Shown piece by piece: positions 24,529 to 29,201 of a stretch of DNA of 35,710 nucleotides; within the stretch, counting starts at the first letter, position 1, and every line of letters begins with the position of its first letter. The notes below the pieces were generated by a model. The model saw nothing but the letters and a program-made list of their open reading frames with translations, searched no databases and was not told the origin of the DNA. The stretch lies in contig JAKAJH010000022.1 in assembly GCA_021813905.1 (NCBI GenBank), positions 11,599-47,308 on the forward strand, in the 5' to 3' direction. The DNA comes from Bacteroidota bacterium (GTDB taxonomy: Bacteria; Bacteroidota; Ignavibacteria; UBA10030). The translations under genes were made by a program, and so were the position numbers.

Positions 24529-27324
24529 TCAGCGCCCGGGAGCGGCAATCCGGATCGCCGCCGAGCCGAGGTGAATCGTGCGGTGCGTCGTGCCATCGGC
24601 CCACGCCTGCGGAAGCATCGGGCGGAGGCTGAAGGCCGTCGTTGGCCGCAGCCGGATCTCTCGGGCCGGATCCATCTGGCGCACCAGCAGCCAGCAATCC
24701 GCTTCGCCGTTCCAGGCGGCACCGGAATTCCCGGCGGCGTACTGGATCGTGCAGCGATGCTTTCCCGGAGGCAACGAGACCGTGGACCAGCGTGATCGGC
24801 TTTCCGCATTGCCGTTGCGGACGTCGACACTGCGTCCGTCGACGATCGCGCGAATGACCGGAGCGTTCTTCGCTTCCCCCGCCGGACCGGTGGAGAGGAT
24901 GGCGAGCATCGCATCCGGGCAGTCCGGCGGGATCTCAACCGTTGCCTCGAAGGAATACTTGCCGGCCGGCGTCTGGTCCTGCCGGACGGAACCCGACAGC
25001 GTGCGCGCCGATTCCTCACGCACATCACGCACCAGTTGCGCAAGGGACTGCTCCGCAGCGGCCGCACCGGCCACCAGCCGGGGATTCAGCAGCTTCACCT
25101 CCGAATCCGCCGACCGGAACCGGAAGACGTACTCGCCGGACCTCGCGATCGTCTCATCGAAGACCGCACCCGCCAACAGCGGCGCCTTTGCCTCCTGAAG
25201 AGGATAGAGCTCGTAGATGGCGGTTTCATATCCGTCCAGCGGCAGTTCGACCTTTTCCCCTTGCGCATACAATTTGGGCGAGACCCAGCGGTCCGGGTAA
25301 ACGCGCTCGATCACAAGATCATGGGCGCCGGCCGTCATTCCCAGGGTCGTCGTCAGGTCGACGTTGAGCGTTTGGGGGATGATGAACGGATTCCGCGCCG
25401 CCAGGATCGCCCGCGAGCCGGCGCCATGGAAGTACCCGTAGGCCTCCCGTCTGAGCGGATTGCCTCCGATCATATCCGTGCGCATAAGCGTCGGGAACCG
25501 ATCCCGGGCCCAGAGGAGCGATTCGCCCAGCACGCGCCATTCGCCTTCACTCAGGATATCCGGCGAGACATACAACTCATACATCGCAATACCCCGCGCG
25601 ACATACAGGACGACGTCGTCCGCGAACTTGTCGAGCGATTCTTCCGGACTCCCGAGCAGCTCCAGCTTTCCCTTGATGATGCCGTGTGTCATCAGATTCG
25701 ACATCGGGAACCAGAGGTCCTTCTGCCGAAAATCGTCGTAGAGCACGAAATCGCGGTACGTGATGGCGGCGTCGCGGTCGCTGATGGACGGCACGTCCGC
25801 ATAGCCGTAATCCTCTCCCTGCATCCAGATCGTGTTCGCGTACTGCACCCACCACGGACTGAGCCACGTGCCGGAGGTGATGTTCAGGAACACCGCCGGA
25901 TTGACCGCGCGGACATCGCGGCAGAGAGTGACCACCGAATCCATGATCGCCGTCCGGGAGTATACGTCGATCGGATGCCCGTGATCCGGCTCGCTGCAGG
26001 AGAACTGAATGCCATCCCATTTGAAATACGTGACGCTGTCGTCGCGGACCATGTCCGTGACGCGGCGATCGAGGAGCGCATGGTAGTTCTTCCCTCCGAC
26101 ACACATCTGATCGCCGACAATCTCATAGCCGTGCTCTTTCATCCAGCCGATTCGTTGACGGTGGAAGGAGTATCCTCCGGTGGGACCGTACCAGATGCCG
26201 AGCCCCGTCCCCGAGGTTGCAAGGTCCTCCGCAAGGGGCTTGAGACCGTTCGGCCATTGCGCGGCGCGAAGCTGCCAGTCGCTCTTGTACACGTCCCAGC
26301 CGTCATCGAGAACGAACGCATCGAGGCGGATGCCGTATTTGTGCATCATCTTCGTGCGCAGCAGCTCCGCCATCGCCCGTGACGAGCGCTCGCTCATGTA
26401 ATTCTCGGGGGGAACGCGCGGGTATTCGGGGGAGCGAAGGTCGTACCACGTATTGTACAGCGTGAACGGCCGGGGTGCGGCTATCTGAATATCGTCCACG
26501 TACTCGAAGAAATGTCGCTTGACGTTCGCATCGGGCGTCAATCCGACCACCGCCGTTCCGCTCTCGCGCCATTCGCCTCTAATGCGATGTCCGACATCTA
26601 CCCCGCACCGGACGAGTACGCCCGAAGTCCCCGATACCGACCGATTCTCCCCGACAGGATTCTCCAGGCCAAAGAACGCGCCGCCGGTGCCCAGGCGTAC
26701 GGCGATCGGCTGTCCGAAGCCGCCGGCATGGATCACGTCTTTCACGTCGCTGCAGATGAGATTCAGCGGCCAGAGCTGACGGAGGAAATGATGGCCGAAC
26801 GACGTATCGCGCACGGCGATCGAACGACGACAGTAGTTCTTTCCGGCAGGCAGCTCGTAGACGACGCGCAGCAGGATGGGATGCTGATCCCCTTTCATCA
26901 GAATTTCAAGCTGTCTTCCGCCGTCCGGCAGGTTTGAAATCTCCGCGCGCTCGACGGCGAAGAATGCTTTCGTCAGCGCAACGGGATTCTCGGCGTTGTT
27001 GATCGTCCCCGGCGCCTGCCAGTCGGTGAACATCACGTTCACCTCAAAGTCGGCGTCCGTTGCAAGCGTGACGGCGGGTCGGCTTCCGTTGCGCAGCAGT
27101 TCCTCTCGATCTCCGGCAATTGCCTGCCCGCGAGTCTCGACCGTCACGCGCAGTACGCCGTTGTCGATCACATAGGAACGCACGCCTTCGGTCGCTGTCG
27201 TTTGAGCAGCGGCTGGCGGCGTCGCGCACAGGACGATCGCCGTGATGAGCGACAGACACACGGTTCGCAGCTTCCGGCGCATGAAACCGGCTGTGGCGCA
27301 ACGCGAAGCACGGATCACGCTCAT
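24529..27324 (-). CDS. Exported GH36-like (alpha-galactosidase/melibiase-like) glycosidase
   Basis: The start at 27324 (MSVIRASRCATAGFMRRKLR) follows GAGGAGAG at good spacing and opens a signal peptide ending near PPAAAQ; the protein has 931 residues. After an N-terminal beta-sandwich, the TIM barrel shows LYNTWYDL, then FVLDDGWD (about 337-344) and TYFKWDGIQFSC, where D437 matches the nucleophile of the 'KWD' motif in clan GH-D (GH27/GH36). WMQGEDYGYADVPS (about 500-513) holds acidic residues that could be the acid/base. The C-terminal ~200 residues form beta domains, the last (YSFEATVEIPPDCPDAMLAI ... PPGKHRCTIQY) resembling a carbohydrate-binding module. It should hydrolyse terminal alpha-galactoside or related alpha-linkages outside the cytoplasm. 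Whether it belongs strictly to GH36 or a neighbouring family cannot be settled by eye. It is the first gene of the minus-strand run. Confidence 0.85.
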   Translation of the reverse strand: MSVIRASRCATAGFMRRKLRTVCLSLITAIVLCATPPAAAQTTATEGVRSYVIDNGVLRVTVETRGQAIAGDREELLRNGSRPAVTLATDADFEVNVMFTDWQAPGTINNAENPVALTKAFFAVERAEISNLPDGGRQLEILMKGDQHPILLRVVYELPAGKNYCRRSIAVRDTSFGHHFLRQLWPLNLICSDVKDVIHAGGFGQPIAVRLGTGGAFFGLENPVGENRSVSGTSGVLVRCGVDVGHRIRGEWRESGTAVVGLTPDANVKRHFFEYVDDIQIAAPRPFTLYNTWYDLRSPEYPRVPPENYMSERSSRAMAELLRTKMMHKYGIRLDAFVLDDGWDVYKSDWQLRAAQWPNGLKPLAEDLATSGTGLGIWYGPTGGYSFHRQRIGWMKEHGYEIVGDQMCVGGKNYHALLDRRVTDMVRDDSVTYFKWDGIQFSCSEPDHGHPIDVYSRTAIMDSVVTLCRDVRAVNPAVFLNITSGTWLSPWWVQYANTIWMQGEDYGYADVPSISDRDAAITYRDFVLYDDFRQKDLWFPMSNLMTHGIIKGKLELLGSPEESLDKFADDVVLYVARGIAMYELYVSPDILSEGEWRVLGESLLWARDRFPTLMRTDMIGGNPLRREAYGYFHGAGSRAILAARNPFIIPQTLNVDLTTTLGMTAGAHDLVIERVYPDRWVSPKLYAQGEKVELPLDGYETAIYELYPLQEAKAPLLAGAVFDETIARSGEYVFRFRSADSEVKLLNPRLVAGAAAAEQSLAQLVRDVREESARTLSGSVRQDQTPAGKYSFEATVEIPPDCPDAMLAILSTGPAGEAKNAPVIRAIVDGRSVDVRNGNAESRSRWSTVSLPPGKHRCTIQYAAGNSGAAWNGEADCWLLVRQMDPAREIRLRPTTAFSLRPMLPQAWADGTTHRTIHLGSAAIRIAAPGR

Positions 27325-27345
27325 GTTTCTCTCCTCAGCCGCCCG

Positions 27346-27374
27346 TTGCACGCGGCGCGGATTCTGAGTATATT
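27346..27374 (+). promoter_or_regulatory. Sigma70-like promoter of tRNA-Arg
   Basis: TTGCAC (27346-27351) and TATATT (27369-27374) are 17 nt apart, placing the start about 5 nt before the mature tRNA 5' end at 27386. The arrangement copies the TTGCA(T)-17-TATACT promoter at 23169-23197. On the opposite strand the same AT patch reads TATACT (27372-27367), which may serve the GH36-like gene, although I find no matching -35. Confidence 0.65.
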
Positions 27375-27385
27375 GGAGTGGTTTT

Positions 27386-27459
27386 GCACCCATAGCTCAA
27401 TTGGATAGAGCATCAGACTTCGGATCTGAGGGTTGAGGGTTCGACTCCCCCTGGGTGCA
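27386..27459 (+). tRNA. tRNA-Arg (anticodon TCG)
   Basis: A 74-nt cloverleaf: acceptor GCACCCA/TGGGTGC (perfect), D arm GCTC/GAGC (27395-27398, 27408-27411), anticodon stem TCAGA/TCTGA with loop CTTCGGA placing anticodon TCG at 27420-27422, 5-nt variable loop, and T arm GAGGG/CCCCC with loop TTCGACT. The T stem has one mismatch (A27436 against C27450). The discriminator is A, and CCA is not encoded. It reads CGA codons. A degraded 3' half-copy lies 15 nt downstream. Confidence 0.93.
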
Positions 27460-27473
27460 CAAGTTCCGGCCCT

Positions 27474-27586
27474 GCATCAGACTTTGGACTTGAGAGTTGG
27501 TGGTTACCCGCCAAATCACGTGGCGGGCAGATCCGCCTGCCGGTGAGACACAGCTTGGGGCAGGCGGGGCTCCCTCAGAGTGCACA
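27474..27586 (+). pseudogene. Decayed 3' half of a tRNA-Arg copy, split by an inserted element
   Basis: Bases 27474-27505 repeat the anticodon arm through the start of the T loop of the neighbouring tRNA (GCATCAGACTT identical, then TGGACTTGAGAGTTGG with scattered changes). The match resumes at 27570-27586 (CTCCCTCAGAGTGCACA against CTCCCCCTGGGTGCACA). The 5' half of the tRNA is missing and the anticodon stem carries substitutions, so it cannot fold as a functional tRNA. Between the two parts sits a 64-nt palindromic element. Confidence 0.75.
27506..27569. repeat. 64-nt palindromic element inserted in the tRNA remnant
   Basis: It contains two exact stems: CCCGCCA/TGGCGGG (27507-27513 and 27521-27527, 7-nt loop) and CCGCCTGCC/GGCAGGCGG (27533-27541 and 27559-27567, 17-nt loop). 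The GGCGG...CCGCC halves can also pair with each other across the element. This looks like a REP/MITE-type dispersed palindromic unit. No second copy is visible in this window, so dispersal is inference. Confidence 0.55.
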
Positions 27587-27597
27587 GCAATGCGATT

Positions 27598-27623
27598 CGG
27601 CCCGCAGCATCTCGCGCGGGCCG
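27598..27623 (+). terminator. Terminator-like hairpin after the tRNA region
   Basis: CGGCCCGC (27598-27605) and GCGGGCCG (27616-27623) form a perfect 8-bp GC stem with a 10-nt loop, followed by TGTTGTCTG. The T content after the stem is poor, so termination would be weak or the stem may protect the 3' end of the tRNA transcript. It lies between the tRNA remnant and tadA. Confidence 0.4.
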
Positions 27624-27656
27624 TGTTGTCTGCGAACCGGTCAATGACACTGTCCC

Positions 27657-28127
27657 ATGACGACGTATGAACGCTGGATGAAGCAGGCGCTCCGCGAAGC
27701 GCAGCGCGCTGCCGAACTCGATGAAGTGCCGGTCGGCGCCGTCGTCGTTCATGACGGACAGATCATCGGCCGCGGCTACAATCAGATCGAGCGACTCAAA
27801 GACCCCACCGCCCACGCCGAGATGATCGCGATAACGGCAGCGGCAGCTCACCTGCAATCCCGCCGGCTGGAAGACTGCACGCTCTATGTCACGCTCGAGC
27901 CGTGCCCAATGTGCGCCGGGGCAATCGTACTCGCCCGCATTCCCACGCTTGTGTTTGCCGCCTACGACCCCAAAGCCGGTGCGGCCGGCACCCTCCACAA
28001 TATTGTCGAAGACAAGCGGCTCAACCACACCTGCCACGTGGTGGCCGGCGTCTGCGACCGCGAAAGCGAAGAGCTGCTCAAACGTTTCTTCGGAAGAGTC
28101 CGCGCCCTTCCGCGGAACAACGCCTGA
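27657..28127 (+). CDS. tadA: tRNA-specific adenosine deaminase
   Basis: A 156-residue cytoplasmic enzyme that converts the wobble adenosine of tRNA-Arg(ACG) to inosine. The zinc-site motifs are intact: HAEM (His ligand plus proton-shuttle Glu) in [11 protein letters not shown] at about 54-62 and PCPMCAGAI with the two Cys ligands at about 84-90. [19 protein letters not shown] and [16 protein letters not shown] are typical of TadA, as opposed to guanine or cytidine deaminases. Length is in the usual 150-170 range. It starts about 200 nt after the tRNA-Arg(TCG) gene, which is not its substrate because that tRNA has T at position 34. Only a weak ribosome site is seen. It is convergent with prfA, with a 3-nt gap. 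Confidence 0.95.
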
Positions 28128-28130
28128 ACT

Positions 28131-29201
28131 TCAGCTCGCGGCCTGCTGAAGCTTGTCCGCGCGGTCGGCCAGCCGGAGCTGTTCCAGCAGTTCATCGAGT
28201 GCTCCATCGATCACGCGGTCCAGATTGTACGCCGTGTACCCGATGCGATGGTCCGTCAGGCGGTTCTGGGGAAAATTGTAGGTGCGGATCTTGTCGCTGC
28301 GGTCCCCGCTTTTGACCATCAGGCGCCGCGCTTCCGCCACCGACTTGTTCTGCTCCTCCACCTGCATCTCGTAGAGCTTCGCACGCAGCATCTTCATCGC
28401 CCGCTCGCGATTCTGGAACTGTGAGCGCTCCTGCTGGCATGCGACGACGATGCCCGTCGGCTTGTGCGTGATCCGGACAGCGGTCTCGACCTTGTTGACG
28501 TTCTGTCCTCCCTTTCCGCCCGAACGGTATGTGTCAAACTGAAGGTCGGCCGGATTGATCTCGATTTCCACTTCCTCCACTTCCGGCAGCACGACGACCG
28601 TGGCTGCGGACGTGTGCACCCGCCCCTGCGCCTCGGTCTCGGGCACACGCTGCACCCGGTGGACGCCGCTTTCGTATTTCATCATGCCGTAGGCGCCCTC
28701 CCCCGCCACCGCAAACACGATCTCCTTGAATCCTCCCTTCCCGGTTTCATTCCAGTCGAGAAGATCCACACGCCAGTTCTTGCGTTCCGCAAAGCGCGTG
28801 TACATCCGATGAAGATCCGCTGCGAACAGCGCCGCTTCCTCGCCGCCGGTGCCGGCACGGATCTCCATGATGAAATTCTTCGTGTCGTTGGGATCCTGCG
28901 GCACCAGCAGGAGCTTGAGCTCTTCCTCGAGCGTGGCCACCTCCTGCCGGAGCGTGTCGAACTCTTCCTGCGCCAGCTTCTTCATCTCGGGATCGTTGGT
29001 CGTCTCGAGCAGTTCCTTGCTCCCTTCGAGGTCATGGAACGACTTCTCGTAGCGCCGGCCTGTCCGGATGATCGGCTCGAGGGTACGCAGCTCCTTGCCG
29101 AGATCACGGCCGCGCTGCGGGTCTGCAGCGACTGCAGGATCGCTCAACTGCGACTGCACTTCCGCGTACCGTGCAAAGATCTTTTCGAGTTTGTCGAGCA
29201 T
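28131..29201 (-). CDS. prfA: Peptide chain release factor 1
   Basis: The true start is [20 protein letters not shown] at 29201, although the frame is open further upstream inside the DUF1385 gene; this gives 356 residues, standard for RF1. RF1 recognises UAA and UAG in the ribosomal A site and triggers peptide release. The catalytic loop [20 protein letters not shown] contains the universal [43 protein letters not shown]-like sequence (here [13 protein letters not shown]) and [12 protein letters not shown] are RF1/RF2 landmarks, and [20 protein letters not shown]-like C-terminal sequence ([17 protein letters not shown]) fits RF1. It follows the DUF1385 gene by 11 nt, so both are likely in one transcript. 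No prmC methylase gene is present in the window. Confidence 0.97.

Follow-up and report, generated by a model that had tools for sequence, protein, structure and literature searches.

Downstream of an intact tRNA-Arg(TCG) gene, in a 35,710-nt stretch of a Bacteroidota genome of the Ignavibacteria (hereafter the window), lies what looks like a second, damaged part of the same gene. How did it come to be there? A sequence-only reading had seen in it the decayed 3' half of the adjacent tRNA, cut by a palindromic element, and had offered two origins: a tandem tRNA array that shrank and was hit by a REP/MITE-like unit, or an old attachment-site scar of an integrative element. The analysis reported here points to a third origin. 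The half-copy probably belongs, as a decayed form lacking an ORF, to a class of very small homing-endonuclease elements that target tRNA genes. Genomes (G), contigs (C) and loci (L) are cited by our own handles, G000 being the window's own genome.

RESULTS

A broken half-copy of tRNA-Arg(TCG)

Table 1. The tRNA-Arg(TCG)-tadA locus, in window positions
Feature	Position	Strand	Basis
Intact tRNA-Arg(TCG), target gene	27386..27460	+	ARAGORN; Rfam RF00005, 66.8 bits
Truncated copy, left part (tRNA positions 25-56; ends GGTT, T loop)	27474..27505	+	81% (26/32) identical to 27410-27441
T-loop insert, 64 nt, two hairpins	27506..27569	+	DNA fold, z = -4.67; single genome copy
Insert hairpin 1	27507-27527		arms CCCGCCA/TGGCGGG
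Insert hairpin 2	27533-27567		arms CCGCCTGCC/GGCAGGCGG
Truncated copy, right part (T-loop end, T stem, acceptor 3' strand)	27570..27586	+	82% (14/17) identical to 27445-27461
tadA-like deaminase ORF; synteny anchor, outside the element	27657..28127	+	ORF list

The presence of a decayed 3' half of the adjacent tRNA-Arg was borne out by the two direct repeats listed in Table 1. Indeed, alignment of the tRNA with the 196 nt that separate it from tadA gave a self-alignment score of 17, a value reached in 0/5000 dinucleotide shuffles (maximum 12.5). The short 3' piece was weaker by itself, its score being reached in 40/5000 shuffles. The break in the T loop, after GGTT, was read directly from the sequence, and the 64 nt that cause it folded as DNA into two hairpins, with 0/200 shuffles equally stable; here too the earlier description held. 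An intact tRNA followed by a loop-broken truncated copy is the arrangement of the tRNA-targeting GIY-YIG class proposed below. The downstream ORF, which from its sequence we take to be tadA, shows 74-81% identity to most of the family members that matched in full. The tadA relatives listed come from several phyla, Ignavibacteria-type genomes being among the nearest.

ARAGORN found the intact tRNA-Arg(TCG) and no second tRNA at the locus. With E up to 1, Rfam returned the tRNA-Arg, an antisense Plastid-ycf2 match below cut-off and a sub-threshold gyrA match, and no intron family across 26800-28400. A group I intron in the tRNA was not supported, since no Rfam intron matched and the tRNA-Arg itself is intact. 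Likewise, a functional RNA at the half-copy was supported neither by Rfam nor by the RNA fold, as the 140-nt stretch showed no unusual stability as RNA (z = -0.44).

The insert occurs once in the genome

The REP/MITE-like unit of the sequence-only reading had been tied to further copies of the insert, for which a whole-genome search was to be made. The search returned a single copy: in the 3.08-Mb genome (G000), the 140-nt stretch matched itself, its parent tRNA and five short, weak places, and the first hairpin, used as a pattern, was found in one place only. With a single genomic copy each of the whole insert and of its first hairpin, the REP/MITE reading is not supported. Eight comparable stretches at other tRNAs of this genome, searched as one joined query (E 0.01), matched only their own places or tandem neighbours. 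A REP/MITE family was rejected because neither the window insert nor any of these eight stretches had dispersed copies.

The same locus in relatives is empty, ORF-less or occupied by a nuclease gene

We compared 15 loci in which tRNA-Arg(TCG) precedes tadA, one of them the window's own, with 196 nt between the two genes. The search took in a single congeneric genome, G001, which at 55% completeness yielded no usable locus. Three states were observed. In G046 and G051 the locus is empty, with a single intact tRNA and 83 and 80 nt, respectively, up to tadA. An ORF-less state was found in G041, from the genus of G046 (171 nt, with a T loop interrupted by a 30-nt double hairpin and an 18-nt 3' copy free of mismatches), and in G018 (777 nt, an exact 18-nt copy and a hairpin, no GIY-YIG motif). 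Finally, G009 has 1082 nt, with a GIY-YIG gene and again an exact 18-nt copy. No copy scoring 14 or more was seen in G002, G006, G007, G013, G021, G023, G024, G026 and G030. By eye, the T arm in G007 looks hairpin-broken despite this score.

In G009, the sequence 3' of the copy aligned with the sequence directly 3' of the tRNA in its congeners G024, G026 and G030 (233/288, 201/283 and 202/283 identical), with scores of 175, 112 and 110 as against 26, 16 and 21 (about 16-27) for an element-body control. The post-copy sequence of G009 therefore continues the native flank, and the insertion is a clean one of 385 nt, taken up by the GIY-YIG gene. The flank upstream of the tRNA aligned weakly (36, 36 and 13).

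Comparison with relatives lacking the insert thus bears on part of the earlier reading. Because G046 and G051 carry a single intact tRNA at 83 and 80 nt from tadA, a shrunken tandem array is not needed, though plain duplication keeps a low probability. The scar kept its mobile-element look, but the relatives suggest a small GIY-YIG nuclease element and not one of the integrase type.

Truncated self-copies are frequent beside tRNA genes

To place the half-copy in a wider frame, tRNAs called by ARAGORN were each aligned to their own 500-nt flanks, in which intact tRNAs were masked, and flanks scoring 14 or more were counted; mismatched tRNA/flank pairs served as control. The survey covered 41 tRNAs in G000 (41/41 Rfam matches, complete), 37/43 in G022, 39/44 in G041, 42/46 in G033 and 38/45 in G098. 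Self-copies were found in 11/82 flanks of G000 versus 10/910 mismatched pairs, in 10/74 versus 5/826 in G022, 14/78 versus 10/868 in G041 and 5/84 versus 2/935 in G033. In G098, which belongs to another order, the figures were 1/76 versus 0/849, and the pattern was present at one tRNA only.

In the window's own genome, a truncated self-copy lies no more than 500 nt away from 10/41 tRNA genes, where the control rate predicts about one: Arg(tcg), Arg(tct), Arg(cct), Gly(ccc), His, Leu(tag), Met, Pro(cgg), Ser(tga) and Thr(cgt). tRNA-Asn is an eleventh case, with its copy beyond 500 nt. At His, Met and Arg(cct) the copies form tandem ORF-less units of 131, 69 and 126 nt that match at 98-100%. The copy at Leu(tag) is exact over 60 nt, and other exact 3' copies measure 14-35 nt. 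In no case did we see an ORF enclosed by a tRNA and a self-copy less than 500 nt away.

Copies elsewhere are modified in other ways. In G041, the Val and Gly copies have their anticodon arm replaced by a well-formed hairpin. The near-full copies at L364 (G009 tRNA-Pro cgg) and L378 (G041 tRNA-Val tac) show another GC hairpin in that place. At L278 (G041 tRNA-Ala cgc) and L249 (G022 tRNA-Val tac), a second copy broken by a hairpin is divided into a 5' and a 3' part, and the intact tRNA lies between them as if nested. The 5' copies at L078, L074, L253 and the G027 5' flank (L069) have in common a two-hairpin module, CAAAA..TTTTG then ATCCCG..CGGGA, which by eye resembles the inverted form of a module found 3' of tRNAs. 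An interrupted-looking tRNA-Arg in G027 turned out to be a run of N, with no intron.

GIY-YIG nuclease genes lie between tRNA and copy

Small GIY-YIG ORFs were first met on reading the stretches between a tRNA and its truncated copy in relatives, and PF01541 was confirmed in 4/4 related proteins scanned, one of which (L365) is not tRNA-linked. A PF01541 search of six genomes listed 45 matches, 30 of them with loci; half of these (15/30) adjoin a tRNA, and 14/15 of the latter have a self-copy scoring 13.5 or more. The four loci with frames of 593-853 aa, the size of UvrC, lack this arrangement. Leaving out these four, one locus of 423 aa and one same-array duplicate, the unbiased part of the set comprises 24 loci, of which 14 are tRNA-adjacent and 13 bracketed by tRNA and copy.

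For a search across the phylum, alignment A1 was made of 11/15 tRNA-adjacent loci (without L353, L358, L359 and L378, L358 belonging to the same array as L368) together with L365, which has no tRNA. As A1 holds mostly tRNA-linked nucleases, the search is biased towards them. It gave matches in 191/296 genomes. When the best locus of each of 30 genomes was inspected, 26 had a tRNA, and 26/26 of these a self-copy of 13.5 or more. Among 40 further loci chosen from the matches listed, 36 were no more than 600 nt from a tRNA, and 33 showed a self-copy scoring at least 14. The pooled set, enriched for the tRNA-linked type, holds 90 entries for 89 places (L395 and L415, without tRNA, being one place entered twice), and the ORF was re-found in 89 entries, that is, 88 places. 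The nuclease lies within 600 nt of a tRNA in 73 of the 88 places, with a self-copy in 69, and in 64 it is enclosed by the tRNA on one side and the copy on the other. Of these 64 bracketed entries, 48 have the copy on the 3' side and 16 on the 5' side. Counted by entry, 16 of the 89 are not tRNA-adjacent and 9 are tRNA-adjacent without being bracketed.

Some elements are arrayed in tandem. G375 has five units, 315 nt apart, after tRNA-Asp; the spacings are 323 nt in G220 and 450 nt in G321, and G009 has two units after tRNA-Ser(gct). The window's own genome has one full element, at L354 (C50), in which tRNA-Asn is followed by a GIY-YIG gene and then by a 3' copy that is exact over 20 nt; by eye, a hairpin stands just 5' of that copy. 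The same genome also has a GIY-YIG gene of the tRNA-linked type at C53:76882-77121 (L392/L365) that has neither a tRNA nor an Rfam family less than 1.5 kb away; this element possibly lost its target or has another. No family reached the gathering score of Rfam at the loci lacking an ARAGORN tRNA (L386, L392, L408, L415, L433, L440, L447, L349, L360, L365).

Outside these sets, a Candidatus Neomarinimicrobiota contig (L153) has tRNA-Ser(cga), a GIY-YIG frame and a self-copy scoring 15. Loci from named organisms gave a self-copy of 13.5 or more at 4/58 tRNAs. Phage relatives of one nuclease amounted to 7 records, all under 60% identity.

At the window, the 126-nt gap is too short for a GIY-YIG gene, a motif scan found none there, and the nuclease profile run against the whole window gave no match better than E 2.5. 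For these reasons we filed it as a remnant or ORF-less form. No GIY-YIG gene stands between its tRNA and the copy, while G009 has one at the same tRNA; likewise, the GIY-YIG catalytic domain, as in SegB, is present in the relatives' proteins and none is encoded in the window.

Copies break in tRNA loops and nucleases follow their target

From 138 distinct partial copies we derived 178 internal ends, 125 of which fall in the D, anticodon or T loops as against 60.2 expected if uniform (p = 5e-23, an optimistic value because the rows are related). The count covers loci up to L408 except the named-organism loci L138-L217, with loops placed by a simple rule. Copies scoring 17 or more gave 78/117 ends in loops versus 39.6 expected. 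In the T loop, 22 copies have R57 as their first position and 14 have C56 as their last, which places the peak at GTTC^RA.

The phage T6 enzyme SegB, also of the GIY-YIG type, cuts within tRNA genes (PMC13096335). Its sites share RAWTSGAAC in 23/83 cases, a motif that helps cutting and is not required for it (PMC13096335). RAWTSGAAC is the reverse complement of the T-loop sequence GTTCSAWTY, which implies the very site where the copies break. By analogy, the coincidence of motif and breakpoints may be taken as an independent pointer to GTTC^RA.

On a quick tree of the nucleases, the target isoacceptor required 25 changes over 82 rows (shuffled mean 63.8, minimum 59), and the host family 43 changes over 85 rows (57.5 when shuffled, minimum 51). 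Reducing the set to a single row for each combination of host family and isoacceptor gave 22 changes versus 38.3 shuffled (minimum 34). In these counts, 18/105 rows without a tRNA label were left uncounted and labels held by a single row were dropped. The nucleases thus follow the target tRNA more than the host, with some host signal present, and by this quick tree they show the target-specific spread across hosts expected of a free-standing homing endonuclease. By sequence profile, the closest solved chains are 1zg2 (E 2e-18) and 1ywl (3.7e-17), then SLX1 (1.1e-8 to 1.1e-6) and I-TevI (0.005), which places the tRNA-linked nucleases nearest to UPF0213 proteins and SLX1, then to I-TevI. SLX1 is a cellular, structure-specific repair enzyme.

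ORF-less and full forms have similar hairpins

The T-loop hairpin of the G009 GIY-YIG element aligned with that of the ORF-less G018 element, at the same tRNA, with a score of 26, the maximum in 2000 random palindromes being 16. The full Ser(gga) and the ORF-less Thr(cgt) elements of G033 have identical double hairpins of 30 nt, from which that of Pro(ggg) differs by one base. In G041, the double hairpins of the full Ser(gga) and the ORF-less Ser(cga) elements differ by one base. Homology of the window's own hairpins to any other insert would be conjectural.

A pattern search for the double hairpin in seven genomes, one mismatch allowed, gave 15 matches in 5/7 genomes, of which 9 adjoin tRNAs and 6 do not; four of the latter look like double hairpins with another second hairpin. 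Since 6/15 matches are away from tRNAs, hairpin insertion may be a separate process. A strict scan of the fetched loci found 7 distinct places, 6 of them in tRNA copies (reversed-sequence control, 1). The seventh, L068 2250, belongs to a stretch of 17 kb with a single tRNA, 6 kb from the hairpin. Copy number is low, too, for the two-hairpin module that follows tRNA-Arg in G031, with 8 matches in 5/6 genomes and none in G000. Four further double hairpins of the form TCAGCC...GGCTGA-TGCGCC... (L458, L463, L464 and L465, in G022 and G033), with no tRNA in the 3-kb locus, perhaps make up a separate low-copy palindrome family.

DISCUSSION

How a tRNA gene may acquire a broken copy of itself

The full form of the proposed element would read, in order, intact tRNA, spacer, GIY-YIG gene of about 80-110 codons, and loop-broken truncated copy of the same tRNA; insertions at the 5' end would be its mirror image. 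By eye, the spacer of some full forms contains a terminator-like hairpin. We infer the following course of events. Cutting by the nuclease would fall within one of the loops of the tRNA gene, in many cases at GTTC^RA in the T loop, and repair of the break would install the element, which brings along the missing tRNA part. Since the element carries that part, the tRNA would stay whole, and the displaced remnant would retain the native flank. Palindromes in the loops of the remnant would destroy the cleavage site, and the remnant would presumably escape re-cutting because its loop is broken in this way. Loss of the ORF would then lead to forms like that of the window, whose element could be a remnant of a full form or could have arisen without an ORF.

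A wider proposal is possible, and we advance it tentatively: the tRNA genes of the phylum may have been colonised by tiny "self-rebuilding" homing elements whose nuclease lineages are specialised by isoacceptor, with the remnant-loop palindromes acting as an immunity mark against re-cutting and ORF-less versions, the window's among them, still being amplified in trans by the nucleases. The last point is suggested by tRNA-His, tRNA-Met and tRNA-Arg(cct) of the window's genome, where tandem units without an ORF are nearly identical to one another. If the class of elements proposed here is real, many small chromosomal GIY-YIG genes of the phylum would be selfish elements living in tRNA loops, a niche among the most conserved stretches of a genome, in which the problem of hitting an essential gene is solved by rebuilding the tRNA. 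It would also account for tRNA genes that are accompanied by tandem repeats and by truncated copies of themselves, and provide a chromosomal counterpart of phage SegB with the same apparent target sequence. A single locus with empty, ORF-less and full states would make a ready test system. Our searches of an open-access library turned up no description of tRNA-linked chromosomal elements that combine a GIY-YIG gene with a truncated copy of the tRNA.

Other origins of the half-copy

Could ordinary tandem duplication of the tRNA, by slippage or unequal crossing over, have been followed by decay, the hairpins being later, unrelated insertions? The tandem ORF-less units at His, Met and Arg(cct) and the exact 60-nt copy at Leu(tag) are in favour of it. 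However, duplication leaves unexplained why GIY-YIG genes stand between tRNA and copy in 64/88 places, why breakpoints pile up at C56|R57, and why, in G033, near-identical 30-nt inserts occupy one and the same T-loop position in tRNAs that differ. We therefore regard it as unlikely.

Quite unlikely, too, is a palindromic double-hairpin element that inserts by itself into tRNA loops, with the GIY-YIG elements as independent visitors. The window insert is itself a double hairpin, the motif recurs away from tRNAs (6 of its 15 matches in 5/7 genomes), and the L068 hairpin is 6 kb from the nearest tRNA, all of which would agree with such autonomy. Yet the same inserts are found inside elements bearing a GIY-YIG gene, the tRNA-linked ones sit in truncated tRNA copies, and the window insert and the eight stretches of its genome lack dispersed copies.

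The half-copy as the attachment-site scar of a classical island or phage, integrase-borne, at the tRNA 3' end appears very improbable. tRNA 3' ends are common integrase targets, and exact 3' copies of 14-35 nt do occur in the window's genome; against this, the whole units measured are small (spacings of 315, 323 and 450 nt, and the 385-nt insertion in G009) and filled by a GIY-YIG gene, and the copy is on the 5' side in 16/64 bracketed entries. A functional tRNA-like RNA, for instance a decoy or regulator kept by selection, is hardly credible: well-formed hairpins do replace arms in several copies, such as the anticodon arm of Val and Gly in G041, but the window copy is decayed, no such copy was seen in G046 and G051, and the 140-nt stretch has no excess RNA stability.

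Relation to known systems

For the homing-element origin that we favour, SegB would be, by analogy, the closest parallel in action. This free-standing GIY-YIG homing endonuclease of phages T4/T6 is, like the nucleases described here, coded beside tRNA genes, within which it cuts (PMC13096335), and it drives tandem amplification of a tRNA-plus-segB unit (PMC2988022), to which the arrays found here may be likened. SegB is phage-borne, whereas the present elements are chromosomal, isoacceptor-specific, located at many tRNA genes, and have ORF-less forms. The consulted parts of the SegB accounts, whose survey concerns phages and archaeal viruses, describe no rebuilt tRNA with a palindrome-broken truncated copy.

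As for the proteins, UPF0213 and SLX1 are the closest solved chains, a likeness seen by sequence profile. Double-hairpin or repetitive hairpin-forming elements of mitochondria resemble the window insert in having small adjacent hairpins and no ORF (PMC2800124, in the part consulted). The window insert is a double hairpin without dispersal, with related low-copy motifs in relatives; unlike the mitochondrial elements, the hairpins here are tied to a truncated tRNA copy and a T-loop site, at low copy number. Fungal mitochondria rich in homing endonuclease genes (HEG) offer another likeness, namely truncated extra gene copies in a GIY-YIG-rich genome (PMC4162613). The difference is that protein genes of an organelle are concerned, and the consulted part of that source states no causal link to the nucleases (PMC4162613).

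The tyrT/tyrV repeats of E. coli K-12 (rttR/tpr region; L450) have a similar look. Counted from the end of tyrT, the final 19 nt of tRNA-Tyr are found again at +156, +453, +631 and +809, with a spacing of 178 nt in the latter three, and the break is in the T loop, with a GC hairpin shortly before it (by eye). At this one locus, the annotated features of 2.4 kb include no GIY-YIG gene, and the break is at G57|A58, whereas in the elements described here it is at C56|R57.
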